From Rhodospirillaceae bacterium (GTDB taxonomy: Bacteria; Pseudomonadota; Gammaproteobacteria; Steroidobacterales; Rariloculaceae), in contig JAHEEN010000012.1 in NCBI GenBank assembly GCA_024640685.1, positions 1 to 35,618 of the forward strand: a stretch of DNA of 35,618 nucleotides. Reading direction: 5' to 3'. Positions within the stretch are counted from its first letter, which is position 1; each line of letters starts with the position of its first letter. The notes under the pieces are model-generated. The model ran no database searches and was not told where the DNA came from. It saw only the letters and a program-made list of their open reading frames with translations. The position numbers and the translations under genes were made by a program. This document shows positions 8,082 to 35,618 of the stretch, one piece after another.

Positions 8082-9158
8082 TCAAGGCTCGCGCACGAAC
8101 GACCATTCACCGGATACGTGCACCTCGCGCACTTCGGTCGCGACACCGTCGTCGTCTACCGTGAACACGAACCCGAGACCGCAGCTGCATTCGAACGACG
8201 TCTCGGAAAGTGGAATCAGCCGCGCCCGCCCGGTGCCCGTGAACTCCGCCTCGGCATACGGCGGTGTCCTCAGCAAGAACAGGTTGCCGTCCTCGAGCGT
8301 GACTTCGATGACAGCGTTCGAGCGCAGCCAATTGCCCGTATACGTCCCGACGTAGCGCTCGAGCACGTCGAGCGGCGCCTCGTACGAATCTTCCTCAACC
8401 TCGCTGATTGCGCCACCCCAGCGGCCGTCGTTCTCGGACGCCTCGTTGCAGATGACCTCGAGCATCACGTCGTCGGCCATGTACTCCATGTCGATCAGCG
8501 CACTGACGGGCTCGTCGAACGTGCCGGGATCGACGAACGTCACGTCGATCTGCATGTGGCCGAAATCGGTGCGCGTGTAGCGCTCCGTGACACGCAATGC
8601 CTCGGTATGCGGCAGGCCGTCGCGGTGCGTCCATGTCCTGTCGTTGTAGCCGTTGCTCTCGACGACGAGCGTGTCGCCGTCCCAGTAACCGACGGAATAA
8701 CCCATCCACGTCGGCAGCGGGTCGGGCTCGAGCTCACGGCCGTCCATGAATATTTCGCGATACGTCATATCGGCGTGCAGAATCGCGATCAAATTGGGGT
8801 TCTGCACGATGCGCCGATAACCGAATGTCGGCCCACCAAGTGCCAGCAGCCCGGGCCCGCTCGGCAGGCAGCGGAAACGTGGGTCGTCCTGGTAGTAGCG
8901 CGACTGATTTCCCTCGAGAATCTCGCGCGCCCATGGTTGCGCCTTCGCCGGGTCGAACACGCTGCCCTCGGCATGCTGCGGCAGCCATAGCCCCGTCAAC
9001 TCGGGACGCCCGTCGGCGCCGCGCGGAATTGGTGCAGACATATCCGGCGAGCCGTCGGCGTTGCGGGGAATACCCGGCGTCGGCAGCGACAGCCACTGAG
9101 CCGCGACCGGCGTTGTCGCGACCAACAAGAGCGCCAGAGCGGCGAAGTTTCTTTTCAT
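8082..9158 (-). CDS. Secreted protein of the 'LSGxW ... GDTLVVET' family, function unknown
   Basis: 358 residues with a Sec signal peptide (MKRNFAALALLLVATTPVAA, cleaved before QW). GGGGGA six bases before the ATG supports the start. The family signature appears in order: RPELTGLWLP (about 52-61), FRCLPSGPGLLALGG, RRIVQNPNLIAILHA, YREIFMDGRELEP, GYSVGYWDGDTLVVESNGYNDRTW, EALRVTERYTR, and FVDPGTFDEP. Residues after about 270 (VLERYVGTYTGNW and on) form an extra beta-rich module. It is probably a periplasmic beta-propeller- or lipocalin-like protein, but no activity is known to me. Three other proteins in this window carry the same core (27097-28227, 28248-29129, C-terminal half of 34007-35011). 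It is divergent from a DUF6152 gene. Confidence 0.75.
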   Translation of the reverse strand: MKRNFAALALLLVATTPVAAQWLSLPTPGIPRNADGSPDMSAPIPRGADGRPELTGLWLPQHAEGSVFDPAKAQPWAREILEGNQSRYYQDDPRFRCLPSGPGLLALGGPTFGYRRIVQNPNLIAILHADMTYREIFMDGRELEPDPLPTWMGYSVGYWDGDTLVVESNGYNDRTWTHRDGLPHTEALRVTERYTRTDFGHMQIDVTFVDPGTFDEPVSALIDMEYMADDVMLEVICNEASENDGRWGGAISEVEEDSYEAPLDVLERYVGTYTGNWLRSNAVIEVTLEDGNLFLLRTPPYAEAEFTGTGRARLIPLSETSFECSCGLGFVFTVDDDGVATEVREVHVSGEWSFVREP

Positions 9159-9220
9159 AATTCCCCCGATCGGAACCGTCGCCGGGGACCCGTTGTGTAC
9201 CCGATCCCGCCGTTCGCCAT

Positions 9221-9226
9221 TATACT
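9221..9226 (+). promoter_or_regulatory. Possible -10 element for the DUF6152 gene
   Basis: TATACT lies 40 bases before the ATG at 9267 in the 108-base divergent region. No convincing -35 is found 17 bases upstream. The AAAGGGGG sequence around 9249-9256 is the likely Shine-Dalgarno. Confidence 0.3.
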
Positions 9227-9266
9227 TCCGGAACTACGCATTTGATGCCAAAGGGGGCGTCACGGC

Positions 9267-9650
9267 ATGAAAGCGCTTTTCCTAACCGTCGTAGGCTCGG
9301 CCTGGCTACTCGCCGCCGCGCCGGCCGCACCGCACCATTCGTTTGCCGCCGAGTTCGACCTGAACCGCCCGATCGCAATTACGGGCACTGTCACGCGCAT
9401 CCAGTGGACGAACCCACATGCCTGGGTTCACGTCGACGTCGAGAATGACGGCAGCGTCGAGAGCTGGGCGATCGAGATGCTCGGCATCAATACGCTGATA
9501 CGGCGAGGCTGGACGCGTGAGACGCTGAGCCCGGGCGATAGGGTCGCCGTCGAAGGCTTCGGCGCGCGAGACGGCAGCACGACCGGCAACGCGTCGAGCG
9601 TCATGTTGGTCGATTCCGGAGAGATGCTCTGGGAGAGCCGCACGCAGTAA
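9267..9650 (+). CDS. DUF6152-type small secreted protein
   Basis: 127 residues. A hydrophobic signal (MKALFLTVVGSAWLLAAAPA) is followed by the family's opening APHHSFAAEFDLNRPIAITGTVTRIQWTNPHAWVHVDVEN. His23-His24 and the His of NPH (His51) are conserved in the two other DUF6152 domains of this window. The fold should be a small beta barrel of the nucleic-acid- or sugar-binding type; its function is not known. Here Pro precedes the HH pair, so signal peptidase probably cuts before Ala21 and leaves A-P-H-H at the N-terminus. The gene is divergent from a GDTLVVE-family gene (8082-9158), an association repeated elsewhere in the window. Confidence 0.85.
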   Translation: MKALFLTVVGSAWLLAAAPAAPHHSFAAEFDLNRPIAITGTVTRIQWTNPHAWVHVDVENDGSVESWAIEMLGINTLIRRGWTRETLSPGDRVAVEGFGARDGSTTGNASSVMLVDSGEMLWESRTQ

Positions 9651-21779: not shown

Positions 21780-23981
21780 CTAGGCCCAGCTCAAATCGTG
21801 TCTCAACATCGGCGTCGAGCGCACGCGCTTGCCAGTCGCGAAGAAGATCGCATTAGCGACAGCCGGTGGCGTCGGCGGACCGCCGGGCTCACCGCAGCCG
21901 CCCCACCAACCATCCTCGGATAGGGCATAGTGGATCTCGACTTCCGGTGCCTGCGGCATGCGCATCAGGTTGTAGGTATCGAAGTTCGTGTTGACGAAAC
22001 GACCGCCCTGAAGATCCAAGCCGCCGTAGAGCGCATGCGAGAGCTCGTAGACGACTGAGCCTTCGAGCTGCTCGCCCGCGCCACGCGGATTGATGATGTA
22101 ACCGCTGTTGTGCACGAGCACGACTTTCTCGACACGCACTTCACCGCGGCGGCTGACCGATACGGTCGCACACGCGCCGCAGTAGGAATTGTGATCCTCG
22201 GCGACGGCAACACCCATGCCTTGCCCGCGCGGCAGATCGGTCGTGAAGCCAGCGACCTCCTTGAGCTTGAGCAGCACGCGCTGCCAAGGTTCGAGCCCTT
22301 TCGTCATCTCGATGCGCCACTCGAGCGGATCCCAGTCGCCGGCCAATGCGAGCTCGTCGGCAAACTGCTCGATGATGAAGCCGTTCTGATTCGCGCCCGG
22401 CCCCCGGTGCGTCGCCGTCGGGATATGAGCGTGGACGTTATGGCGTTCGTGGCGGCGATTCGGGACTAGGTAAGGCATCGTATTGATGCAGACATCGGCC
22501 GTTGCGGGACCGATCTGCTCGACGCCACCGCGGTTGAACCAAACCGCACGCGAGAAAAACGCCTCGGGCAGACCGTTGTCGCGGAGGGACGCGGTCATCC
22601 GGGTATAGTGCGGTGGCCGCTGCTGGTCCTGCGTGATGTCTTCCTCGCGGGGCCAGACGACCTTGGTCGGGCGACCGACCTGCTTGGCGATTTCAGCCGC
22701 CTGCCGCGTCACGGCCGTGAAGCCGCCACCGTTGCCGCCGAACGCGCCGCCTATAAATACCGTGTTGACGTAGACGTCACGCGTGTCGCGGCCGAGCTGA
22801 TCGGCGACGACCTTGAGCGCCGCCGCCTGATCCTGCACCGGCGACCAAACGTCGACGCGATCCTCGTAGATCGCAACGGTCGCATTGATCGGCTCCATGC
22901 GCGCATGCGTCTCATACGGCCGATGATAGTCGGCACTTACGACACGGTCGGCCGGCGCGGCTGCCAGCAGATCTCGCGCATCGGCGCCAACTTCGCCACT
23001 GACCTCGCCGTCCTCTTCGAGCATCTGCGCTGCTTGCGCAGCCAACGTCTCGTTACTGACGCTGCCCTCGGGGCCGAAGTCCCACTCGACCGGCATCAAA
23101 TCCAGCGCGGTCTTCGCGCGATACCACGAATCGGCGACGACCGCGACGCCGTTTTGCATCGCATCGCGCGTGTTCGTGATCCCGGGCACCGCCTTGAGCT
23201 CGACGGCTGCGACTACGCCGGGACGGTCGCGCACTTGGTCGAAGTCGAAGCTCGCGAGACGCCCCCACGGCACGGGACAACATTTAACGGCCGCGTAGAC
23301 CATGCCGTCGAGTCGCGTGTCGATCGCGTAATGCGCGCTGCCGTTGACTTTGACCGGCACGTCGAGGCGATCGGTCGGAGTGCCGAGCAACCACCACTCG
23401 TCGGGGTTCTTCTTGATCGCCGGCTCCTCGGCCAGCATGATCGAGCCTGCTTCGGCAGCGAACTCCGCGTACGGCGCCGATCGACCGTTGGCGCTCAATA
23501 CGCCCTGACGCGCCGTGACTTGCGAGCGGTCGATGCCCCACGCACGCGCTGCCGCTTCCTTCAAGCGCTCACGCGCCGATGCACCGGCTTGCATGATGTG
23601 CGGATGCTGCAGCCGCACGAGCTGCGAGCCGTGCGTCGTCGTGACGATATATTCCTCGCCGTCGTTGACATGGCGATTCATGTCCGCGAAGACCGTCTGG
23701 ATGCGATCCCACGGCACGTCGAGCTCCTCGGCGACGAGCATCGCGACCGACGTCAGCGCACCCTGCCCTTGCTCGGTGTGCGGCACGCGAATCGTCACGA
23801 TGCCATCGGCATCGATTGCGAGCCACGCGTTGACCTCGACGCCGTCCGTCGGCGTCGTCCAAGGCCTGGGGGCTACGACCGCGGCGAGCGCCCCGGGCAT
23901 CTGAAAGCCGATGATCATGCCGCCCGCTGCCGACATCGAGCGGATGAGTGTGCGACGCGTCAGCATCATGTCCATTTCCAT
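21780..23981 (-). CDS. iorB: Molybdopterin-binding subunit of a periplasmic oxidoreductase (IorB-like), copy 1
   Basis: 733 residues, the usual IorB length. A Tat signal (LTRRTLIRSM, Arg9-Arg10) is followed by AAGGMIIGFQMP. AGGAGG eight bases upstream supports the ATG at 23981. Motifs in order: VNAWLAIDADGIVTIRVPHTEQGQGALTSVAMLVAEEL, a central aldehyde-oxidase domain from about 210, HARMEPINATV, FIGGAFGGNGGGF, HIPTATHRGPGANQN, and GGCGEPGGPPTPPAVANAIFFATG with the catalytic Glu698. It hydroxylates an aldehyde or N-heteroaromatic compound by the xanthine-oxidase mechanism. It works with the 2Fe-2S subunit encoded 15 bases upstream and is exported bound to it. There is no FAD subunit, so electrons should go to a cytochrome. 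The substrate is unknown. Confidence 0.92.
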   Translation of the reverse strand: MEMDMMLTRRTLIRSMSAAGGMIIGFQMPGALAAVVAPRPWTTPTDGVEVNAWLAIDADGIVTIRVPHTEQGQGALTSVAMLVAEELDVPWDRIQTVFADMNRHVNDGEEYIVTTTHGSQLVRLQHPHIMQAGASARERLKEAAARAWGIDRSQVTARQGVLSANGRSAPYAEFAAEAGSIMLAEEPAIKKNPDEWWLLGTPTDRLDVPVKVNGSAHYAIDTRLDGMVYAAVKCCPVPWGRLASFDFDQVRDRPGVVAAVELKAVPGITNTRDAMQNGVAVVADSWYRAKTALDLMPVEWDFGPEGSVSNETLAAQAAQMLEEDGEVSGEVGADARDLLAAAPADRVVSADYHRPYETHARMEPINATVAIYEDRVDVWSPVQDQAAALKVVADQLGRDTRDVYVNTVFIGGAFGGNGGGFTAVTRQAAEIAKQVGRPTKVVWPREEDITQDQQRPPHYTRMTASLRDNGLPEAFFSRAVWFNRGGVEQIGPATADVCINTMPYLVPNRRHERHNVHAHIPTATHRGPGANQNGFIIEQFADELALAGDWDPLEWRIEMTKGLEPWQRVLLKLKEVAGFTTDLPRGQGMGVAVAEDHNSYCGACATVSVSRRGEVRVEKVVLVHNSGYIINPRGAGEQLEGSVVYELSHALYGGLDLQGGRFVNTNFDTYNLMRMPQAPEVEIHYALSEDGWWGGCGEPGGPPTPPAVANAIFFATGKRVRSTPMLRHDLSWA

Positions 23982-23996
23982 CGTCTCGGCCTCCTA

Positions 23997-24458
23997 TTAA
24001 GAATGTGCGAGCTCGGCTGCACGATGGATGGCTGCGCGAATCCGCGAGTACGTGCCGCAGCGACACAGATTGCCGGCCATGGCCGCGTCGATCTCCGCAT
24101 CGCTCGGATTCGGGTTGCGCGACAATAACGCCGCCGCTGCCATGATTTGGCCCGACTGACAGTAACCGCATTGCGGCACGGTATTCTCGACCCACGCGCG
24201 CTGCAGCGGGTGGCTCGAGTCCGGCGACAAGCCCTCGATCGTCGTGATCTCTCGACCGACCGCGGCCGAGGCCGGCGTGCTGCAGGATCGTACGGGCTGA
24301 CCGTCGAGGTGCACGGTGCACGCACCGCACTGGGCGATACCGCAACCGAACTTCGTGCCGGTCAATCCGATCGTGTCGCGCAACACCCACAGCAGTGGCG
24401 TCTCCGGCTCGACGTCGATCTCGTGATTCGTGCCGTTAATCGTCAGCGTGAAGGCCAT
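23997..24458 (-). CDS. iorA: 2Fe-2S subunit of a molybdenum oxidoreductase (IorA-like), copy 1
   Basis: 153 residues. The plant-ferredoxin-type cluster motif is [19 protein letters not shown] with Cys39, Cys44, Cys47 and Cys59. The second cluster motif is [11 protein letters not shown] (Cys97, Cys100) with LCRCGTY (Cys132, Cys134). These are all eight Cys ligands for the two 2Fe-2S clusters of the xanthine-oxidase family. It passes electrons from the molybdenum site outward. It has no signal peptide and would be co-exported by the Tat signal on its partner. It lies 15 bases before the partner gene, with a 284-base region upstream that may hold their promoter. Confidence 0.95.
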
Positions 24459-24742
24459 AGGGACTGTCCTCGTTCATCCGTTGGGTCGCGGCCCCGGACC
24501 CTAGCGATGTGTATTCCCTGCTTGGGCCGACTCGATCCGTGTGCGTGCGCGCACTGAAGCTGCAGAGAACTCGCAAATGGTCACACAAAGTGGCGTCGTT
24601 GTCACCGCCGGCGAAAGAATTTCTGACAGAATCAATGAGTTGCAAAGACGTGACGGCGATTCCGGCGAGCATCCGACGAACCACCGCTGCGTGGGTCGAG
24701 ATGATGTCAAACGTGACACGCGGGCGTCAGCAATTGGCGTGG
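24459..24742. other. 284-base intergenic region before the first iorAB pair
   Basis: This is the longest gap without a clear gene. It separates the CmcJ-like gene from the iorA/iorB pair, all on the minus strand. A possible -35 TTGCAA with 17-base spacing to a weak -10 AAATTC is present on the minus strand near 24620-24650. Short frames inside it have no recognisable domain and I do not call them. Confidence 0.35.
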
Positions 24743-25543
24743 TCAAGCAAAGAAGGCGAACAGCCGTGTCTCCATCGACTCGCGCGGCGGAAGCACCGAG
24801 CCATTTCCCGAAACTTCGAATGACGTGTGGACGCACCACCGCGCTCGGCCGTCGGTCCGAGAATCGTAGGTTTTTATCAGCAAGACCTCATCGACAGCCA
24901 TCTCCGGAAAATAAATCCAGCGTTGCCCAGCGGCGTAGCGGACGAGATAGATCTCACCGATGCGGCCCTTGCCGCGACGTTCGGTGGCGACGAGCGATTC
25001 CGGACTCAGACTCTGCGCATCACAGACTGCAAGCGGTGACGTTTGTACGGTTGCGATCGGCCGCCAGACATTGACGATCGCGAATTCGCGGCTCGCTAGC
25101 GCCTCGGCCTCACCGCCCATCAGATCGTTGATGCGCTTGAGCGCCGATCGCGGCGTGTAGTCGTTGTGAATGAAGGCCGACGGCTCACGACTCGTATGCT
25201 GCTCTCGAACGTCCGCGGCGCTAGCCCGCCACGTATGGTCGAATATCTCGACGCGCTCTGCTGCCGTCGCCTCGGTCACGAGTGCGCGGCACTGCGCATC
25301 GTGGCGCGTCGCGACGATGTCGCGATCGTAGAGATCACCGACAGGCGCCAACCGACGCAGCGCGAAGCCGTGCACGTCCAAATCGAATGTCTCATCGAGG
25401 CCGCGTCCGTCGAGGACCTCGACGGCACGATCCTCGTAGTCGCCGATCAGCGTCGAATGCGCGGCCGCGCCTCCGGTCGATGGACCGAAGACCGGCTCGC
25501 GGCTGTCGGGGGCTAAAAACCTCAAGCTTGCGAGTACTGTCAT
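24743..25543 (-). CDS. CmcJ/NvfI-family oxygenase-like protein
   Basis: 266 residues, close to the family's normal length. The start VLASLRFLAPDSREPVFGPSTGG, the segment DLDVHGFALRRL (about 54-65), and FIHNDYTPRSALKRINDL carrying an HxD motif (His126, Asp128) fit the CmcJ/NvfI/AsaB group. So do FAIVNVWRPI (about 154-163), SLSPESLVATERR and WCVHTSFEV (His239). Characterised members include fungal Fe(II)/2-oxoglutarate oxygenases of meroterpenoid and gibberellin metabolism and CmcJ of cephamycin synthesis. The HxD...H triad suggests an iron enzyme. There is no signal peptide, so it is cytoplasmic. It is the last gene of a tight minus-strand run, 52 bases after a DUF6644-like gene. The substrate is unknown, and the start lacks a clear Shine-Dalgarno. 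Confidence 0.82.
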   Translation of the reverse strand: MTVLASLRFLAPDSREPVFGPSTGGAAAHSTLIGDYEDRAVEVLDGRGLDETFDLDVHGFALRRLAPVGDLYDRDIVATRHDAQCRALVTEATAAERVEIFDHTWRASAADVREQHTSREPSAFIHNDYTPRSALKRINDLMGGEAEALASREFAIVNVWRPIATVQTSPLAVCDAQSLSPESLVATERRGKGRIGEIYLVRYAAGQRWIYFPEMAVDEVLLIKTYDSRTDGRARWCVHTSFEVSGNGSVLPPRESMETRLFAFFA

Positions 25544-25595: not shown

Positions 25596-26066
25596 TCAAG
25601 GAAAGCCGATCAACCGGCCACAGAGCGCAATCGTGACCCACAGCGTAACGGACAAAGCTGCGACAACCTTCGCGTGCTGCGAGATCCCATGCTCACACAC
25701 GTCTGCAATCACCCGGTGACGCATCGTGAACGTGAACACGAGCGCAACCAGTAATGCCGCGACCTTGATCCAGAACGCGCTGAGATAGTAATACTTCGTC
25801 GCAAAGCACATGAACAGCAGCACGCCGGTTGGCAGCATCACGCAAATACTTCCAATCAGCCATGGCTGCGCGGCTCGGCCGATTGCAGCCGGCGATTGAT
25901 CCGTCAGGCCCAAGCCGAGCAACCTGAGGTCGACGACGAGCACCGCGCCGCCGAGCATCGCGAGCCCGAGCAGATGAACGCTTGCAATTGCAGGGAACAA
26001 CCACGGCGAAGCGCGCATCGCGACGAGCGGCGCGGAGTACTGCAGGGCCTCGAATAACGCGAGCAT
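25596..26066 (-). CDS. DUF6644-like membrane protein, copy 1
   Basis: 156 residues with four predicted membrane helices (about 22-40, 68-88, 97-115, 130-150). It shares the frame H-x(14)-VDLRLLGL near residues 31-52 with its neighbour, which gives the family resemblance: PWLFPAIASVHLLGLAMLGGAVLVVDLRLLGLGL. His31 and His117 (RHR) lie in or next to helices and could bind heme, but this is speculation. It lies 10 bases after the second copy and 52 bases before the CmcJ-like gene. The family assignment is from memory of the pattern and its function is unknown. Confidence 0.7.
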   Translation of the reverse strand: MLALFEALQYSAPLVAMRASPWLFPAIASVHLLGLAMLGGAVLVVDLRLLGLGLTDQSPAAIGRAAQPWLIGSICVMLPTGVLLFMCFATKYYYLSAFWIKVAALLVALVFTFTMRHRVIADVCEHGISQHAKVVAALSVTLWVTIALCGRLIGFP

Positions 26067-26076
26067 GTCGTGGTCG

Positions 26077-26577
26077 TCAGAACCAGTAACGTTCGTAAGG
26101 AATCATTCGGCCGGCGACGATAATCGCGGCCCAAATTGCAAGCCCGATGCCGCCGGCAATCCGCACCGGCGCCGGCGGCGCAGCGTCGCGATCCCAGTTC
26201 GCCACTTGCCGAAACAGCGTTCGATGGAAAATCACGACATTAGCGGCTGCCGAGAGCAGCAGCACAAGCTTCAATCGAAAAAAGACGCTCGCGGCCCGCT
26301 CGACGGGCGCGGCATAGAACAACAACGAGCCCGACGCGATCATGACGGCGATCCCGCCGGCCGCCCACGGCACGAGCCGTGGGATCAGCTGCGATGCCGG
26401 CACGCGCGACAGCATCAAGCCGAGCAAACGCAGGTCGATGACAGCCGCCATTCCTGCGAACACGAACAGCGTCAGGACATGAACAGTCAGGACACCGAGG
26501 AATACGTAGTGTGACTCGCGTAACGCGACGCTGCCCGGCGTCGACGCAAGCCATTCGAGAAGGCCCAACAGCGACAT
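26077..26577 (-). CDS. DUF6644-like membrane protein, copy 2
   Basis: 166 residues and four hydrophobic helices. ESHYVFLGVLTVHVLTLFVFAGMAAVIDLRLLGLMLSRVP (about 21-60) aligns with its neighbour over the same His (His33) and the xDLRLLGL stretch. PWAAGGIAVMIASGSLLFY and VIFHRTLF (His118) also correspond. The tandem pair probably arose by duplication and may form a heterodimer in the inner membrane. The neighbours include secreted DUF6152 and GDTLVVET proteins and a c-type cytochrome, so a part in electron transfer or export is possible. Confidence 0.7.
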   Translation of the reverse strand: MSLLGLLEWLASTPGSVALRESHYVFLGVLTVHVLTLFVFAGMAAVIDLRLLGLMLSRVPASQLIPRLVPWAAGGIAVMIASGSLLFYAAPVERAASVFFRLKLVLLLSAAANVVIFHRTLFRQVANWDRDAAPPAPVRIAGGIGLAIWAAIIVAGRMIPYERYWF

Positions 26578-26636
26578 CGCGCGCGCGTCGCGATCAGCTC
26601 ACGCGCACGCGGTGTCGAGACGACAGTCGAGGCGGA

Positions 26637-27065
26637 CTAACGCCGGCCCGGCGTCGGGTTGCCGTCGGCCCCAGGCGCCGAGCCACCCATGAAGACCTTG
26701 CGCCCGTCGAGATACTCGAAAAACACACCGACGCCCTTGTTCTCACCGCTCTTGGCTTGGTAGCCGAAGACTTTGATCTCCGAGCCAACCGGCAGGCTGT
26801 CCTTCGTCAGGCCGTTGCGGAACAAGTTGACCGGCGGACCGCCCTCCATGCCCCAGTTCGTGACCGTGCCGTCTTCGTTCTCGACGTCGATCCAAACCCA
26901 CGAATGCGGATTGACGAGCTCGACGCGCGTGACGACGCCCTCCAGGTTTAAAGGCTTGCTCTCATCGAACGCGGCAGCGAACGAGTGATGAGCGACGACC
27001 GGCCTACCCAACATGACGACGGCAGCGGCAAGTGCGAACGTGGCAACTGTCTTCAATTTACGCAT
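26637..27065 (-). CDS. DUF6152-type small secreted protein
   Basis: 142 residues from the ATG at 27065, which is preceded by AGGGAGAGAG and begins a signal peptide (MRKLKTVATFALAAAVVMLGRPVVA). The longer frame to 27179 is not supported. Signal peptidase should cut right before His26-His27, giving a mature protein that begins HHSFAAAFD, then LNLEGVVTRVELVNPHSWVWIDVENEDG. The NPH His is at 54. An N-terminal His after cleavage is what copper 'histidine brace' proteins have. The C-terminus (GKVFMGGSAP... type tail) is flexible. It lies 31 bases after a GDTLVVET-family gene and is probably co-transcribed with it. Confidence 0.85.
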   Translation of the reverse strand: MRKLKTVATFALAAAVVMLGRPVVAHHSFAAAFDESKPLNLEGVVTRVELVNPHSWVWIDVENEDGTVTNWGMEGGPPVNLFRNGLTKDSLPVGSEIKVFGYQAKSGENKGVGVFFEYLDGRKVFMGGSAPGADGNPTPGRR

Positions 27066-27096
27066 CAGTCTCTCTCCCTGTCTCTCTAACAGGCGC

Positions 27097-28227
27097 TCAG
27101 TCTTGCGACTGAGCCTCGTATTCCTCGGCCCGTATCTGCGCACCCCTGACAACATTGATGATGCCGTAGTTGTGCTCATGACAAGCCCACTCGTAAATGC
27201 CCGGCGGAACCATCTCGGGCCAAATTATTTCATACGTCCACGGCGCTTCCCATGTCGTCGGATCGGTCAGCGTCGCTCGATAGACGATCGTATCGTCGCC
27301 GGCGCGCGTCAAGCGCTCGACGAGATGCACGTCGCCTGCAGCGCCGCGGGGGCGCACCCAGGTTCGATTCTCATCGAAGTTGCTCGTTTCGATGACGAGC
27401 GTGTCGCCTTCGAAGTGACCTCGCGATATACCCAGCCATGCGCGCACGCTAGGGGGCGGCATCGGGCGGCCGTCGAGCGGAATCACACGGACGTCGTTAT
27501 TGCTCTGCATGATCAGCATGACGTAGTCCCGTGTCTGCACGATCCGCGACTCGCCGATCTGCTGAATGAACGGCACCCGCGGCGGGCCTTCGGAACCGAC
27601 GATGCAGCGCTCGGTCGGGTGGCGCGACTGCAGCGTTTCGCGCCGCGCCTGCTCGTCCCAGCGTACCCGGCCGGCAGCCGTCAACGGCGGGATCCTGCCG
27701 TCGGGCGGATCGATGATCAGCGACGTGCGCCGCGTCGGCCGAATCGGGCTCTGCCAGTTGTCCATGCCGAACTCGGTCCAGTCATAGTGCACGGTCGCCG
27801 GATCGACGGACGCATCCGTCAGCACGGCCGTCTGGAATGCCTCGATGGCCTCTTGAACCGAGTACAGCGGCTTGCCGGCGAGCTCGCGCGGCCGTTCGAG
27901 CGGCGTGTACGTCGCGCTGATCCACGAACCGCGCAAGTCCGGATCGCCCCAAGGGGTGCGCGGTGCCGGCTCGGGCGTGCGCTCGGGATCCCAGACGCGC
28001 TCGACGGCGCGCGCTAGCGCGGCATCGACATCTTCTTCGAAATACGCGAACGTCTCTTCGGAGTCGCGCAGCGATGCCGCGCGCGCTGCTTCCAACGTCG
28101 CTGTCTCACCCTGATTGATGAGCGCCGACGGCGGCGGCTCCGGCTGAGCCCATGCGACATCGTAAACGCCCAGCATCGCGGCGACCGATACCGCCATCGC
28201 GCCGCTCTTGAATGTCTTTCTACGCAT
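27097..28227 (-). CDS. Secreted 'GDTLVIET' family protein, function unknown
   Basis: 376 residues from the ATG at 28227, which has GGAGGT seven bases upstream; the frame continues to 28251 without support. The signal peptide ends near VAWA-QPEPP. Then come a helical acidic region (DVDAALARAVERVW), PWGDPDLRGSWISATY (around 93-108), RCIVGSEGPPRVPF, RIVQTRDYVMLIMQSNNDVRVIPLDGRPMPPPSVRAWLGISRGHFEGDTLVIETSNFDENRTW, VHLVERLTR and TLTDPTTWEAPWTYEIIW. This is the same core as in the 8082-9158 and 28248-29129 proteins. Near the end CHEHNYG holds a Cys/His cluster that could bind metal. It is likely periplasmic, in the middle of a tight minus-strand operon. Confidence 0.75.
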   Translation of the reverse strand: MRRKTFKSGAMAVSVAAMLGVYDVAWAQPEPPPSALINQGETATLEAARAASLRDSEETFAYFEEDVDAALARAVERVWDPERTPEPAPRTPWGDPDLRGSWISATYTPLERPRELAGKPLYSVQEAIEAFQTAVLTDASVDPATVHYDWTEFGMDNWQSPIRPTRRTSLIIDPPDGRIPPLTAAGRVRWDEQARRETLQSRHPTERCIVGSEGPPRVPFIQQIGESRIVQTRDYVMLIMQSNNDVRVIPLDGRPMPPPSVRAWLGISRGHFEGDTLVIETSNFDENRTWVRPRGAAGDVHLVERLTRAGDDTIVYRATLTDPTTWEAPWTYEIIWPEMVPPGIYEWACHEHNYGIINVVRGAQIRAEEYEAQSQD

Positions 28228-28247
28228 CGATCTCACCTCCGACGCGG

Positions 28248-29129
28248 TCAATCGTCGCCCATGAGCCCAAGCGGGCCGTACATAAGCTGTTCGACGAACG
28301 GCACGCAGTTGAACTCGACGAGCTGCGCGCTCGGGTCGACATTCTTATAGAGCGTAAATGACATCTTCCACGGGCGCGTGAAGACGTTCGGGTCCTCGAT
28401 CGTCGCCTCGTAATGCATGTGATAGGGGCTCAGCGGCGTCCAACGCTCGACGACGTGCAGCGCGTCGCTGTGAAAATTCCCGGCGCGATCGAACCACGTA
28501 TAGCCGTTGAAACCGGAGACGTCGACGACGAGCGTGTCGCCGTCCCAGCGCCCGTTCGACCATCCCATCCACGTATAGCCGGGCGACTCGGAATCCGAGT
28601 CCATGAAGATCTCGCGATAGGCGCCCTTGTACTCGTAGACGATGAAGACCTCTTCGGGCGTCTGGATAATCTGGAACGGGAACGGCATGTAGTTCGCGCG
28701 CGGCACGCCGGCGCGGAAACACTGCATCTCCGGATCGCCGGTGTCGAAACGGCTCGGGTCGTTCGCGACCTTGACGACGGTGCGGTTTGCAAAGTTCTCT
28801 CGCTGTTTCTCCGCGGCCCAAGGCTGGTACGGGATCTCATTGCCCTCGACGATCCCTAAGCCGCCGCGCGCCGCGGCCCAGGCGCCGAGCACTTCCGAGT
28901 ACGGCCCGGCCTCCGACGAATGCGCGAGGATGTTCCAGTTGGCTGTCGTGAACGACTGCCAGATACCACTGAGATCCGGCCGACCCTCCGGCGTTCGCGG
29001 AATCGCCGCGCGGAACGAATCGGGGATCTCTTGGGCGACGGCTGGCGGCAGCGACAGCAGGACAGTGACGGCAGCCACAGCGATGGCGACCGTGCCGACG
29101 TTGAATGAGCGACGAATCCTCAAAGCCAT
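28248..29129 (-). CDS. Secreted 'LSGIW ... GDTLVVDV' family protein, function unknown
   Basis: 293 residues with a signal peptide (hydrophobic about 12-30, cleaved near AVA-QE) and GGGGGT before the ATG at 29129. The core is the most typical of the four in the window: RTPEGRPDLSGIWQS (about 45-60), EMQCFRAGVPRANYMPFPFQIIQTPEEVFIVYEYKGAYREIFMD, GWSNGRWDGDTLVVDVSGFNGYTWFDRAG, FHSDALHVVERW and EATIEDPNVFTRPWKMSF. It ends after a Cys-containing LVEFNCVPF segment. No enzyme activity is known to me. It lies 20 bases before its paralogue and 142 bases after the cytochrome gene. Confidence 0.78.
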   Translation of the reverse strand: MALRIRRSFNVGTVAIAVAAVTVLLSLPPAVAQEIPDSFRAAIPRTPEGRPDLSGIWQSFTTANWNILAHSSEAGPYSEVLGAWAAARGGLGIVEGNEIPYQPWAAEKQRENFANRTVVKVANDPSRFDTGDPEMQCFRAGVPRANYMPFPFQIIQTPEEVFIVYEYKGAYREIFMDSDSESPGYTWMGWSNGRWDGDTLVVDVSGFNGYTWFDRAGNFHSDALHVVERWTPLSPYHMHYEATIEDPNVFTRPWKMSFTLYKNVDPSAQLVEFNCVPFVEQLMYGPLGLMGDD

Positions 29130-31066: not shown

Positions 31067-33352
31067 TCATGCACGGGGCGCGCCTGGTTCTCGGGCTGTC
31101 AAAGCCGTAAGCACGCGATCGGGCGTCATTGGCAGCTCGCGCATTCTGACGCCGGTCGCCGCAAACAGTGCATTCGCAACGGCCGCGCCAGTCGTCGCAA
31201 GACCGAGCTCGCCGATGCCGCTCGGCGGGCGAGTATTCGTCAGCGCTCTGACCTCGACCTCGGGCACCTCATTCATGCGCATGACTTGGTAGTCGTAGAA
31301 GTTCGACTGCTCGACGACGCCACCGTTGACGGTGATCCGCTCCTTGAGCGCGTTGCTGAGCCCGTAAATGATCGTCCCTTCCATCTGCGCCTCGGTGTTA
31401 CGCGGCGACAAAATGAATCCGGCATCGATCGCCATCCAGAAGCGGTGCACGCGGACAACGCCGGTCGTCTCGTCGACGGAAATCTCGGCGACGCCCGCAG
31501 ACACCGACGAGCCGCCGTAGTCCGATAGCGCAACGCCGAGCCAGCGACCGTCGCGGGGCTCTGACCAATTCGCCATGCGGCCGACTTCCTCGAGCACGGC
31601 GCGGCCTTCCGGATTCTCGCGCGCGAGATCGATGCGGAACTCAAGCGGATCGGCCCCGAGCGTATGCGCCAGCTCGTCCATGAACGACTCGTTGGCGAAG
31701 CGGGTATAGCTCGTCGCGACACCCCGCCACGGCGCGAGCCGCGAGCAGCGGTCGACGATCACGTGCTCGGCGCGGACGTTCGGGATCGCATAGCGCGTCG
31801 TCTGCGCACCATTCATCGCAATGCCGTCGCGGCCCTGGGCATGCGCCCAGCGCGGCTCGTTCATGTAGCCGAGCACCGTCGGCGTTGCGACACGCTGCTC
31901 CAAGCCTGTGATGTTGCCGTCGGCATCGAGCGCCGCGCGCAGGTACTGCGCGGCGAGTGGTCGAAACGCGCCGTCCTTGACGTCGTCCTCGCGGCTCCAG
32001 ATGACCTTGACGGGCTTGCCGACAGCGCGTGAAACGAACAGCGCATCGTCGACATACTTTTGGCGGTATTCGGTACGACGGCCATAGCCGCCACCGATGT
32101 ACATCGGATGCATCGCTATCTTCTCGGGCGTCGTCTCGAGCGCCTCGGCCGAGCCGAGCACGGTCAGGCTCTGCGTCTGCGTGCTGACCCAAATTTCCGC
32201 GGATTTGCCGTCCTCCGAGACGCTCGCCGTTGCGTTCATCGGCTCCATCTGCGCGTGGTACGCGGGATCGGTCCGGTACGTGGCCTCGATGACGCGTTCA
32301 GCATTGGCGAATGCCGTGTCGACGTCGCCCTTCTCCTGCCACAGCGGATTGTCGGTGTGAAAATCGAGATCCCGGGCACGCGCCTCGTAGTCGTCGAGGT
32401 CGCGCGCATGGTCGGTCGCACGGAATCGCGAGCTCTCGCTCCATGTCACGTCGAGCGCAGCCTTTCCCCAGATCGTCGCCTCGACAGTCTCGCCGACGAC
32501 GGCCACGCCGTAAGGCAGGGTGACGACATCGGTGACGCCGTCGATCGCGCGCGCGGCCGCATCGTCGACAGCGACTGGCGACTCGCCTTCGACCGGCGTG
32601 CGAAGAATCGACGCATAAACCATACCCGGCACCTGGACATCGATGCCGTACTCGGCCGAGCCGTTGGTCTTCGCCGGCACGTCCAGACGCGTGAGGTCCT
32701 TGCCGAGATATCGAAACTCGTCGTGCGACTTGAACTCGCTCTCGTCGACCTCGGGCAGGTACTCGGGGACTTTGGCGCGCGCGACGATCTCGCCATAGCT
32801 TGCCGACTGGCCTGACGCGCCATGCACGACCCGGCTCGGCTCGGTCGAGAGCTCCGCGACCGGCACGCCCCATTGCTCCGCGGCGGAGTCGAGCAAGAAC
32901 TTGCGCGCCTGAGCGCCGGCCTGGCGCATCGGCGTGAAATAGCCGCGCACCGTCGCGCTGCCCGCCGTGTACAAGATCGGATAGCCGAGGTCGCGGGAGC
33001 GCGCTGGATTGCCGTAAACGGGATTGTGCTCGGCCACCGTCTCGACGCGAACGTCGTCCCAGTCGGCGTCAAGCTCCTCGGCGAGGGCGAGCGGCACCGA
33101 CGTCATCGAGCCCTGGCCCATTTCCGTGCCGCCGAACTGAATCGTTATTGTGCCGTCAGCCGCAAGGCTGACCCACGCGTTTGGCGAGATCGCAGCGTCC
33201 GGCGCGCTAGCCAACGGTAGCCCGTCATCGCCGGGTTCCAGACCGCACGCGCCGACGATGCCCGTCGCACCGACGACGAAGGTGACGCCGACGCCCTGCA
33301 GGAATTCGCGGCGGGTCGGCCGGGTTTTGCCGAGCGTTCGTTCGCGCGTCAT
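31067..33352 (-). CDS. iorB: Molybdopterin-binding subunit of a periplasmic oxidoreductase (IorB-like), copy 2
   Basis: 761 residues. The Tat signal PTRREFLQGVGVTFVV (Arg14-Arg15) ends near a Cys (GACGLEPG), and GGAGG six bases upstream fixes the ATG at 33352. Motifs: NAWVSLAADGTITIQFGGTEMGQGSMTSVPLALAEEL, YHAQMEPMNATASV, MYIGGGYGRRTEYRQ (molybdopterin region), SRLAPWRGVATSY and GIGELGLATTGAAVANALFAATG with the probable catalytic Glu715. The last motif departs from the usual GE.G.PP..PA..NA seen in copy 1. It is co-expressed with its 2Fe-2S subunit (one base apart) and with the cytochrome-propeller downstream. It oxidises an unknown aldehyde or heteroaromatic substrate in the periplasm. The Cys in GACG could be a lipobox if the Tat signal is a lipoprotein type. 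Confidence 0.92.
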   Translation of the reverse strand: MTRERTLGKTRPTRREFLQGVGVTFVVGATGIVGACGLEPGDDGLPLASAPDAAISPNAWVSLAADGTITIQFGGTEMGQGSMTSVPLALAEELDADWDDVRVETVAEHNPVYGNPARSRDLGYPILYTAGSATVRGYFTPMRQAGAQARKFLLDSAAEQWGVPVAELSTEPSRVVHGASGQSASYGEIVARAKVPEYLPEVDESEFKSHDEFRYLGKDLTRLDVPAKTNGSAEYGIDVQVPGMVYASILRTPVEGESPVAVDDAAARAIDGVTDVVTLPYGVAVVGETVEATIWGKAALDVTWSESSRFRATDHARDLDDYEARARDLDFHTDNPLWQEKGDVDTAFANAERVIEATYRTDPAYHAQMEPMNATASVSEDGKSAEIWVSTQTQSLTVLGSAEALETTPEKIAMHPMYIGGGYGRRTEYRQKYVDDALFVSRAVGKPVKVIWSREDDVKDGAFRPLAAQYLRAALDADGNITGLEQRVATPTVLGYMNEPRWAHAQGRDGIAMNGAQTTRYAIPNVRAEHVIVDRCSRLAPWRGVATSYTRFANESFMDELAHTLGADPLEFRIDLARENPEGRAVLEEVGRMANWSEPRDGRWLGVALSDYGGSSVSAGVAEISVDETTGVVRVHRFWMAIDAGFILSPRNTEAQMEGTIIYGLSNALKERITVNGGVVEQSNFYDYQVMRMNEVPEVEVRALTNTRPPSGIGELGLATTGAAVANALFAATGVRMRELPMTPDRVLTALTAREPGAPRA

Positions 33353-33353
33353 G

Positions 33354-33806
33354 TCAGACCTCCTGCGCCGCGCGCTCGATGGCCCGGACGATGCGGCTGT
33401 ACGTGCCGCAGCGACAAATGTTCGTGCTCATATGAGCGACGATCTCATCTCGGGTCGGCTGTGGATTCATCGCGAGCAGATTGGCCGCGCGCATGATCTG
33501 ACCGGACTGGCAGTAGCCGCACTGCGGTACCTCCTCGGCGATCCAAGCCTGCTGCAGCGGATGCTCGCCGGTCTCGGACAAGCCCTCGATCGTCGTTATT
33601 TCACGGCCCTCGACATCGGCGACACGCGTTCGGCACGAGAACGCCGTCTGCCCGTCGACATGGACCATGCAGGCACCGCATTGGCCGACACCGCAGCCGA
33701 ACTTCGTGCCCGTCAGCTTCAGGTGTTCGCGTATGACCCAAAGCAATGGCGCATCGGGATGTGCGTCGACGTCGACGTCGCGCCCGTTGATCGTGAACGT
33801 CGCCAT
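33354..33806 (-). CDS. iorA: 2Fe-2S subunit of a molybdenum oxidoreductase (IorA-like), copy 2
   Basis: 150 residues from the ATG at 33806 (GGGGGA just upstream); the frame extends four codons to a TTG at 33818. The eight cluster Cys are present: FGCGVGQCGAC (Cys38, 43, 46), Cys58, [11 protein letters not shown] (Cys96, 99) and ICRCGTY (Cys131, 133). The stop is followed after one base by the ATG of the molybdopterin subunit, so the two are translated together. It is first in the minus-strand run that reaches to 24743, and it is divergent from the DUF6152 fusion gene at 34007. Confidence 0.95.
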   Translation of the reverse strand: MATFTINGRDVDVDAHPDAPLLWVIREHLKLTGTKFGCGVGQCGACMVHVDGQTAFSCRTRVADVEGREITTIEGLSETGEHPLQQAWIAEEVPQCGYCQSGQIMRAANLLAMNPQPTRDEIVAHMSTNICRCGTYSRIVRAIERAAQEV

Positions 33807-34006
33807 GGCTTCCCCCAAAGGTGTCGCTGGCTATTGTGCCCCGAAGATAGCGTAGAGAAGACCCGCGGACTAGGGAGATTGTTTCAGCAGGCGGCAGGCG
33901 CCCATCGCCGGGTGCGAGTGGTTGCGCCGTTCCCGGGGAGAACTTACGCTGGCCCGATGAGACGGCGCGGGCTTCAGCGCCGGGACCCTGCGGCGGGAGC
34001 GAACGC
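33807..34006. other. Divergent promoter region, iorA copy 2 / DUF6152-fusion
   Basis: 200 bases between two divergent starts, so both promoters should be here. A six-pair hairpin (cggcgc / gcgccg, 33963-33982) lies in the leader of the plus-strand gene. No clear -10/-35 pair or operator is evident. Confidence 0.45.
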
Positions 34007-35011
34007 ATGACGTATAGATCCGGTCTGCTCGGCGGTATTGCGCTGGTGAGCTCAGCCAGCGCGTTCGCGCACCACGGTTCCGCACCGTTCGACACGCGCC
34101 GCACGGTGACGCTGGAAGGCACGATCACGCGCTTCGATTATCGCAACCCGCACGGCTTTCTCTATGTTCGCAGTCGCGACGACGCCGGCAATCCGGTCGA
34201 CGTCACGGTGGAGACCGTCGGATCGTCACTGCGCCCGTGGGGGTTCACGCCGGAGTCACTGAGCGCCGGCGAGGAAGTGATTCTCGTCATGAACCCGAGT
34301 CGCCGCTCGCCGAACGAGTGGGGTCTCGGCGTCGAAGTCATCAAGGACGACGGCACGATCGTGCCGCTGTCGGTTCGATTTGCCCGTGAGCTCGAGCAGC
34401 GCAGCACCGGCCACGCGACGACTCTAGCGGGTCTGTGGGTGCCCCGCGGCGAGGATTTCTTCCGCTTCGTATTCTCGCGCTCGTCTCTGGCGCTGACGTC
34501 CGCAGGCGCCCAAGCCAACGAGGCGTTCGACATGAAAGACTCGCCGCAGGCGCACTGCGAAGCGATCCCACCGCCGACGCTAATGTTGTACGGCTCGATC
34601 GATGAGATCGAGATTCTCGACGATCGCGTGTTGATCCACAGCGACTGGCTCGACGGCGAGCGCGTGATCTATACCGACGGACGGACCGTAACTGCCGACG
34701 CCACGCCAGAGCTCAATGGGATCTCTGTCGGACGCTGGGAGGACGGCGAGCTGAACGTCGAGACGACGCATTTCACCGTCAACAACTCGGGCATCATGCA
34801 AGGCGTTCCATCGGGACCGCAGAAGCGCTTGTCAGAGCGCTTCGAGCTCATCGACGACGGCGCGGCATTGCGTTACAGCTACGAGCTCGAAGACCCCGAG
34901 TACTTGCTCGAAGCGATCGTCGGCGAGAGCCGCTGGGACTATCGCCCGGACCTGACGCCTGATCCTGTGCCATGCGACACGGACTCTGCCGGGCGCTATC
35001 TCGACGAGTGA
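34007..35011 (+). CDS. DUF6152 domain fused to a 'GELNVETTHF' (GDTLVVET-family) domain, secreted
   Basis: 334 residues with GGGAG before the ATG. The signal peptide is MTYRSGLLGGIALVSSASAFA; cleavage before His22 exposes HHGSAPFDTRRTVTLEGTITRFDYRNPHGFLYV, a DUF6152 domain (His22, His23, NPH His49). Residues about 120-334 hold the second family: TTLAGLWVPRG, AHCEAIPPPTLMLYG, RVIYTDGRTVTADATPELNGISVGRWEDGELNVETTHFTVN, KRLSERFELIDDGAALRYSYELEDPEYL and WDYRPDLTPDPVPCDTD. These match the core of the proteins at 8082, 27097 and 28248. It is therefore a natural fusion of two families otherwise encoded by adjacent genes here. It is likely periplasmic and its function is unknown. Confidence 0.8.
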   Translation: MTYRSGLLGGIALVSSASAFAHHGSAPFDTRRTVTLEGTITRFDYRNPHGFLYVRSRDDAGNPVDVTVETVGSSLRPWGFTPESLSAGEEVILVMNPSRRSPNEWGLGVEVIKDDGTIVPLSVRFARELEQRSTGHATTLAGLWVPRGEDFFRFVFSRSSLALTSAGAQANEAFDMKDSPQAHCEAIPPPTLMLYGSIDEIEILDDRVLIHSDWLDGERVIYTDGRTVTADATPELNGISVGRWEDGELNVETTHFTVNNSGIMQGVPSGPQKRLSERFELIDDGAALRYSYELEDPEYLLEAIVGESRWDYRPDLTPDPVPCDTDSAGRYLDE

Positions 35012-35083: not shown

Positions 35084-35618
35084 ATGCTCAGGGCGACCGC
35101 CGAACTGACCATGCCAACGACGATCATCGGCTCATTGCCGCGCCCGAGCTGGTTCACCGAGAATCTCGGCAGCGATACGTTTCTGCGGCGCATGATGAAC
35201 TCGCGCTATCGCGAGCAATATACCGACACGGTCTCGGTGCATCTGCGCGATCAGGAAGTCGCCGGGATCGACATCTGCACCGATGGCGACGCGCACTACG
35301 ACGAAGAGGTCGGCGGCCAGAGCTGGACGAGCTATCCGCTGTTTCACATGTCGGGCCTCGAGCGGACGAATCCGCAACCGACCGTCATGCGAACGGGCGG
35401 CGTCGCATTTCCGATGGGCCACATCCTGCACGATTATCTCGAAGCACGGATCATGCCGAAGATCGTCGGCCCGCTCGGGCGCGGCGACTTGCAGTACGCG
35501 GCGATGTGGAAGACCGCGCAGCGTTTGACGCACAAGCCGGTGAAGTTCGGCACGGTCACGCCGGACATTCTGTCGGCAGCTGTCGACGACGCGTATTACA
35601 AGGAGCCGTTCGACCGGA
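35084..35618 (+). CDS. MetE C-terminal-like (cobalamin-independent methionine synthase family) protein, 3' end outside window
   Basis: The first 178 residues are visible and the frame stays open to the end. GAGGAG seven bases before the ATG at 35084 gives a strong start. TIIGSLPRPSWF is the family's N-terminal barrel strand motif, followed by LRDQEVAGIDICTDGDAHYDEEVG (the GID..TDGE-type motif), then VKFGTVTPDILSAAV. This is the UROD/MetE-like barrel. Stand-alone versions act as methyltransferases in methionine synthesis or in aromatic or methylthio-compound metabolism, so true MetE function is not assured. The zinc ligands would lie beyond the window edge. It is 72 bases after the DUF6152-fusion gene and may be co-transcribed. 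Confidence 0.85.
   Translation, partial: MLRATAELTMPTTIIGSLPRPSWFTENLGSDTFLRRMMNSRYREQYTDTVSVHLRDQEVAGIDICTDGDAHYDEEVGGQSWTSYPLFHMSGLERTNPQPTVMRTGGVAFPMGHILHDYLEARIMPKIVGPLGRGDLQYAAMWKTAQRLTHKPVKFGTVTPDILSAAVDDAYYKEPFDR

Follow-up and report, generated by a model that had tools for sequence, protein, structure and literature searches.

A free N-terminal histidine together with another histidine is the signature of the histidine brace, as found in the copper proteins LPMO and CopC and in the pMMO site (PMC10952591). Recently found N-terminal-His metalloproteins share that signature, and the known periplasmic ones capture metals; DUF4198, DUF6702 and the anglerases each combine a signal peptide immediately followed by His with another conserved His and with membrane-protein or transporter neighbours (PMC12537917). 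The calycins FABP, CRABP and CRBP and the periplasmic VtrC share a GxW start, lid helices after the first strand and a barrel, and VtrA/VtrC is the nearest precedent for a periplasmic calycin that comes from a gene pair (PMC4933562). For a very large set of diverged paralogues in one genome, located beside catabolic genes, the nearest precedent is the expansion of the SAR202 flavin monooxygenases, which reach up to 114 copies (PMC6946804).

Here we analyse a system with likenesses to each of these that we found undescribed, and that has a candidate metal site and is hugely expanded in one bacterial family. Its components are DUF6152 (PF19649; hereafter D), an unnamed family with the motifs LSGxW and GDTLVVET (G) and the inner-membrane family DUF6644 (PF20349; M). 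D differs from DUF4198, DUF6702 and the anglerases in belonging to another family, in its His-His start, in its predicted OB-fold and in the calycin barrel fused to it, and its likeness to the histidine-brace proteins lies in the sequence signature, not in a shown sequence relation. G differs from the calycins above in being without detected sequence similarity to them, in being secreted, in two invariant Cys residues and a longer lid, and in its attachment to a metal-type domain. Compared with the SAR202 set, the expansion concerns other proteins in another compartment. As a first-pass annotation of this DNA had remarked, neither D nor G has a known function: in a literature search whose coverage leaves out most subscription journals we found no paper that names DUF6152 or its function and none on DUF6644 or its link to DUF6152, DUF6152 is not named in the main text of PMC12537917, and G carries no Pfam or NCBIfam name.

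The D–G fusion and its stand-alone counterparts

The window, by which we mean the whole 35,618-nucleotide stretch of DNA analysed here, carries a gene that the first-pass annotation described as a natural fusion of DUF6152 to the LSGxW/GDTLVVET family (Table 1). The encoded protein is a genuine D–G fusion. Residues 15–100 match DUF6152 (PF19649) in Pfam with E=5.3e-16 and 58.9 bits against a gathering cut-off of 27, a membership by curated score, whereas the C-terminal half matches no named family in Pfam or NCBIfam. We compared this half with a profile of 26 stand-alone G proteins, which was chosen to contain no fusions as a guard against circularity. The profile matches the C-terminal half of the fusion at 34508–34918 with E=5.7e-20, and hhalign aligns 93 fusions to the stand-alone set at 99.95% (E=1.5e-37, 172 columns). 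The invariant residues C184, R219, G238, E277 and C323 of the fusion have the invariant counterparts C137, R172, G189, E228 and C275 in stand-alone G proteins; D296 also belongs to the set in the fusion, and W144 of the AGLW motif is invariant across the fusion alignment. Orthologues of the fusion in other genomes are single ORFs with 73–75% and 53–54% identity.

The description as a single natural fusion stands as to the fusion itself and falls short as to number, because its genome contains no fewer than 67 fused ORFs. A genome-wide search of this assembly (3.49 Mb in 333 contigs) finds 136 DUF6152 domains and 132 G domains (150 of 160 candidates scored); a scan of genome contigs with one protein recovered 2 loci only. 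Within 0.92 Mb of match-bearing contigs there are 67 fused ORFs, 56 with D only and 60 with G only; the fusion counts are lower bounds because only these contigs were taken in. It is this fusion to a second domain and the 136 copies in one genome that set the present proteins apart from DUF6152 in general.

Both neighbouring pairs of stand-alone genes reported in the first pass, one divergent (8082–9650) and one on the minus strand (26637–29129), are present in the window. The second pair belongs to a gene set at 25596–29129 in the order G-G-D-M-M, which lies on the minus strand throughout with gaps of at most 60 bases and is thus probably one operon. Elsewhere in the same genome (locus L126, contig C77, 15723–17345), an ORF with two tandem G domains is followed by a D gene, a natural G–G fusion plus D gene that mirrors the G-G-D gene order. 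The C-terminal stretch of the G protein at 8082–9158 resembles DUF3471 with E=6e-4, below the cut-off, so an additional small domain of this kind may be present in some G proteins.

Table 1. Features of the window, by position, strand and basis
Feature	Position	Strand	Basis
D–G fusion gene, 334 aa	34007..35011	+	Single unbroken ATG ORF
Predicted signal peptide, residues 1–21 (...SAFA), ending right before His-His	34007..34069	+	Sequence
DUF6152 domain, mature residues 22–120, predicted five-strand OB-fold	34070..34366	+	Pfam, model
H22-H23, predicted mature N-terminus, 100% invariant	34070..34075	+	153-row alignment
N47-P48-H49; P and H 100% invariant; third candidate metal ligand	34145..34153	+	Alignment
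G domain: predicted calycin/FABP-like barrel, GxW (AGLW), Cys184/Cys323, Arg219, Glu277, Asp296	34367..35008	+	Profile, hhalign, model
Stand-alone G, divergent from D at 9267	8082..9158	-	ORF list, profile
Stand-alone D, DUF6152 (111 bits)	9267..9650	+	Pfam
Stand-alone G1, first gene of the probable five-gene operon, fold predicted	28248..29129	-	Profile, model
Stand-alone G2, 4-base overlap with G1	27097..28251	-	Profile
Stand-alone D of the probable operon	26637..27065	-	Pfam; internal Met before signal peptide taken as start, longest ORF from 27179
DUF6644 inner-membrane protein, member by score (28.9 bits, cut-off 27)	26077..26577	-	Pfam
Second DUF6644 inner-membrane protein, member by score (84 bits, cut-off 27)	25596..26066	-	Pfam

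Other genes of the window lie close to these. A CmcJ/NvfI-family oxidoreductase (24743–25543; NF041278, 246 bits) is directly beside the G-G-D-M-M set, and two molybdenum dehydrogenase pairs, each with a large and a [2Fe-2S] subunit, occur within 12 kb (21780–24473 and 31067–33818). A molybdenum dehydrogenase and its [2Fe-2S] subunit are encoded divergently to the window fusion, and the gene for the [2Fe-2S] subunit is kept next to the fusion orthologue of 75% identity. On the other side, 72 bases past the fusion, is the start of a methionine-synthase-like gene (35084–35617; closest solved match 3rpd), which is cut by the contig end and was not seen beside the fusion orthologues that we fetched, whose flanks are short.

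Predicted folds and a candidate metal site

AlphaFold2 models were obtained for the fusion (pLDDT 91.7, pTM 0.87) and for the stand-alone G protein at 28248 (pLDDT 87.0, pTM 0.82). In Foldseek searches of the PDB the two models alike retrieve the barrels of cellular retinoid- and fatty-acid-binding proteins (CRABP, CRBP and FABP) and tardigrade SAHS proteins at a probability of about 1.00 (CRABP2 and CRBP1 at 1.00), with TM-scores by target of about 0.52–0.63 for the fusion and 0.46–0.53 for stand-alone G. The best E-values are modest, at 3e-4 to 1e-3, and the calycin call is thus a statement about fold and not about homology to a named family. A comparison of the G family with PDB sequences gave no named relative, so that the fold comparison alone is informative. 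A GxW motif marks the start of calycin barrels, and LSGxW corresponds to that motif. By predicted structure only, G is a calycin (FABP/lipocalin-like) barrel with GxW in its first strand. Unrelated folds for the C-terminal half of the fusion and the stand-alone protein had been named in the first pass as what would speak against a fusion of the two families; the models instead give calycin-type barrels for both.

The D half of the fusion model consists of strands at residues 34–44, 50–57 and 63–70, a helix at 72–78 and strands at 90–98 and 105–113. From this strand order, and from LysRS matches at low global score, it is predicted to be an OB-fold; a PDB sequence search with D found nothing. 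The pTM of 0.87 for a chain of two domains suggests that D and G have a fixed mutual arrangement.

We examined the N-terminal region of D in 160 proteins from the window's own genome, from other families of its order and from Alphaproteobacteria. All 160 have the His-His pair. In 156 of them the pair is preceded by Ala, Gly, Ser or Thr, compared with a frequency of 31% for these residues in the mature domain, and 157 have a hydrophobic segment within 30 residues upstream. The arrangement looks like a signal peptidase site directly before His-His, so that the mature chain is predicted to start with His. The only positions of D that are 100% invariant over 153 rows are H22, H23, P48 and H49, in a family whose mean column identity is about 22–32%, and the three His residues are common to fused and stand-alone forms. 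The His-His pair and the His of the NPH motif are likely to form a candidate N-terminal-His metal site, and we regard metal binding by D as probable. The predicted OB-fold of D differs from the folds of LPMO and CopC.

The DUF6644 partner and possible roles of the system

The first-pass pairing of D with G holds, the two being linked, but it missed DUF6644, two membrane genes of which continue the 26637–29129 cluster. In a sample of 299 genomes from the phylum, all of the M-bearing genomes carry D (22/22; p=2e-26), and a DUF6644 gene, or one that aligns with DUF6644, lies beside D in 19 of 20 low-copy loci taken from genomes with one or two D copies. DUF6644 is the most constant partner of D in the phylum. 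Thus, D–G is one part of a D/G/M system. The two DUF6644 members of the window have about four hydrophobic segments each, the first of which contains a His that is nearly invariant in the family; no credible match to DUF6644 came from a PDB sequence search. Besides the window, Novosphingobium PP1Y and three further genomes (G214, G215 and G481) have D, G and a pair of DUF6644 genes together, and genome G483 has a D–G fusion plus two DUF6644 genes. In the last case (locus L211, 3175–4320; same class, outside the order) the fusion is followed by the two DUF6644 genes, which is the most compact form of the system that we saw.

The window's own genome also keeps a plain D–DUF6644 pair (L215). The expanded set has hardly any M, with about 10 M genes in this genome, and the expanded proteins may therefore have changed role. 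The distribution looks like that of an old D–M core to which G was added, with the expanded D–G proteins a derived form mostly without M; we infer this order of events from the distribution and not from a rooted tree.

The gene neighbourhoods suggest periplasmic handling of varied organic molecules. In genome G182 the only fusion comes immediately behind genes for a TRAP permease, a TAXI-type binding protein and a Rieske LigXa-type oxygenase, and other fusions have as neighbours TPP enzymes or a PQQ dehydrogenase accompanied by cytochrome c. Neighbours in the window's own genome include NHL and SMP-30 propellers, TRAP transporters, amidohydrolases and metallo-beta-lactamase proteins, as well as PQQ, GMC and molybdenum oxidoreductases; pooled, they are diverse and no single partner enzyme stands out. 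This picture favours a periplasmic metalloprotein that is diversified by substrate.

The best explanation that we can offer, which we hold to be about evenly balanced between right and wrong, is a periplasmic metal-and-ligand system of D and G. The fusion protein would be exported to the periplasm as a single two-module chain. In the OB-fold of D, the His-His start and the His of the NPH turn would use the N-terminal amine and imidazole groups to bind a metal, most probably copper, and the calycin barrel of G, with its helical lid, would bind a small and mostly hydrophobic organic molecule, which we consider rather likely. Fusion of the two would place the metal site next to the ligand. The older form would be D with the inner-membrane M, with G added in G/D/M/M sets such as the one in the window; in the window's own family, D and G, fused or paired without M, would have been copied to about 200 genes, each copy handling its own substrate at a periplasmic step of uptake or oxidation near catabolic genes. 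That the expansion came about through diversification of substrates we consider slightly more likely than not.

Direct redox catalysis, in place of binding or delivery, is possible but somewhat improbable; of oxidation, delivery and sensing, oxidation is the single likeliest role and yet falls short of an even chance. In its most specific form, which we consider unlikely, D–G(–DUF6644) would be an undescribed periplasmic copper oxidase or monooxygenase in which D oxidizes the molecule held in the attached G barrel, DUF6644 or periplasmic cytochromes give the electrons, and one bacterial family has more than 60 fused enzymes per genome, diversified against varied dissolved organic matter.

Alternatively, the proteins could bind or sense without any chemistry, with G capturing a ligand and relaying it or signalling and the metal of D being structural or a switch. 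Most calycins are binders and carriers. In VtrA/VtrC, which two genes encode, the periplasmic barrel acts as a bile-salt receptor (PMC4933562), and TRAP, TAXI and TonB uptake genes are nearby. However, three His residues that are 100% invariant at a mean column identity this low suggest chemistry or tight metal binding, and no regulator is a constant neighbour. Such a role has perhaps one chance in four of being the right one.

Slightly less probable is metal handling in the manner of CopC and CopD, with D as a periplasmic carrier, M providing passage through the membrane, G as an accessory and the expansion reflecting metal scavenging. The N-terminal His of D would fit this, as would the near-constant presence beside D of an inner-membrane protein whose first hydrophobic segment carries a nearly invariant His, the TonB receptor that adjoins D–G in Alphaproteobacteria and the capture of metals by known periplasmic N-terminal-His proteins (PMC12537917). 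About 136 D copies per genome are nevertheless hard to square with metal supply, the 25 listed neighbours of low-copy D–M loci include zero copper or nickel families, and the fusions share operons with organic-substrate transporters and oxygenases. Profiles of CopC and CopD gave no match, the Pfam scans returning DUF6152, DUF6644 and a weak DUF2214 only. Pure copper homeostasis was demoted because of the copy number and the catabolic context.

Linkage of D and G, and their expansion

That D and G act together had been proposed in the first pass from their fusion and repeated adjacency, and the wider evidence supports this. A stand-alone G gene lies within 600 bp of 36 of the 56 stand-alone D genes, whereas 1000 random placements gave 6.4 such D genes on average and never more than 18. 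Among 174 genomes of the order, with the window's own family excluded, 24 have D and 20 have G, and the two occur together in 17 (p=2e-15). Adjacency extends to Alphaproteobacteria: in Croceibacterium atlanticum the annotated order is DUF6152, DUF6152, a hypothetical protein (G) and a TonB receptor, and D is beside G on Novosphingobium plasmids. On a tree of 155 G domains, made with FastTree, a coarse method, the fused and unfused states need 7 changes, at least 5 of which are forced by well-supported branches; this points to several fusion or fission events and supports joint action. The clade that holds the window fusion consists of fusions only (49 rows), some of them from other families of the order. 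The D tree is too short for a count of the fusion events. Fusions found in other families of this order, and at L211 outside it, led us to reject a single recent fusion event. Together with the independent profile homology and the shared fold, these observations make the functional link between D and G a strong one.

The adjacency could instead arise from many-fold copying of an ancestral block without joint function. Tandem copies of fusions and of G genes are indeed common, and the mirror-tree signal is weak for stand-alone pairs (Spearman 0.21 between the distances of D and its neighbouring G, with 16 of 2000 permutations as high), whereas inside fusions the distances of D and G correlate strongly, at 0.66. 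Copying of a block is very improbable as the whole account, given that the adjacency recurs in Alphaproteobacteria and in several other families, that D and G co-occur across genomes, that the G tree carries those forced changes between fused and unfused states and that the two-domain model has a high pTM. An assembly artefact or frameshift that joined two ORFs in a fragmented metagenome assembly has a negligible probability, since, despite the 333 contigs and a window that ends about 600 bases past the fusion, it is refuted by single-ORF orthologues in independent assemblies and is opposed by the many other fused ORFs in the genome, by the coherent high-confidence model and by the equal number of matches in a relative with a far less fragmented assembly.

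This relative, 97% complete in about 20 contigs, shows that the high copy number does not come from fragmentation. All 22 genomes of the window's own family match, most of them with dozens of copies; one 1.2 Mb relative in the family (G105) has 3–4 copies only, compared with the dozens in its kin. Other families of the order have up to about two dozen D copies. In the phylum sample DUF6152 is present in 31 of 299 genomes, and the window's own is the sole genome with more than 8 copies.

D and G together account for about 200 genes in the window's own genome, which we estimate at about 6% of its genes if there is near one gene per kb. This share is thus devoted to two families without a known function, one of them without a database name. 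Their sequences offer roles that can be tested, namely a metal site where the mature chain begins and a barrel for small molecules, and the one-copy D–DUF6644 form found in other Pseudomonadota, some of which are likely to be cultivable, makes deletion practical. If it is true that the fused proteins oxidize their ligands, they would be a large and so far undescribed set of periplasmic catalysts that act in the turnover of organic matter.
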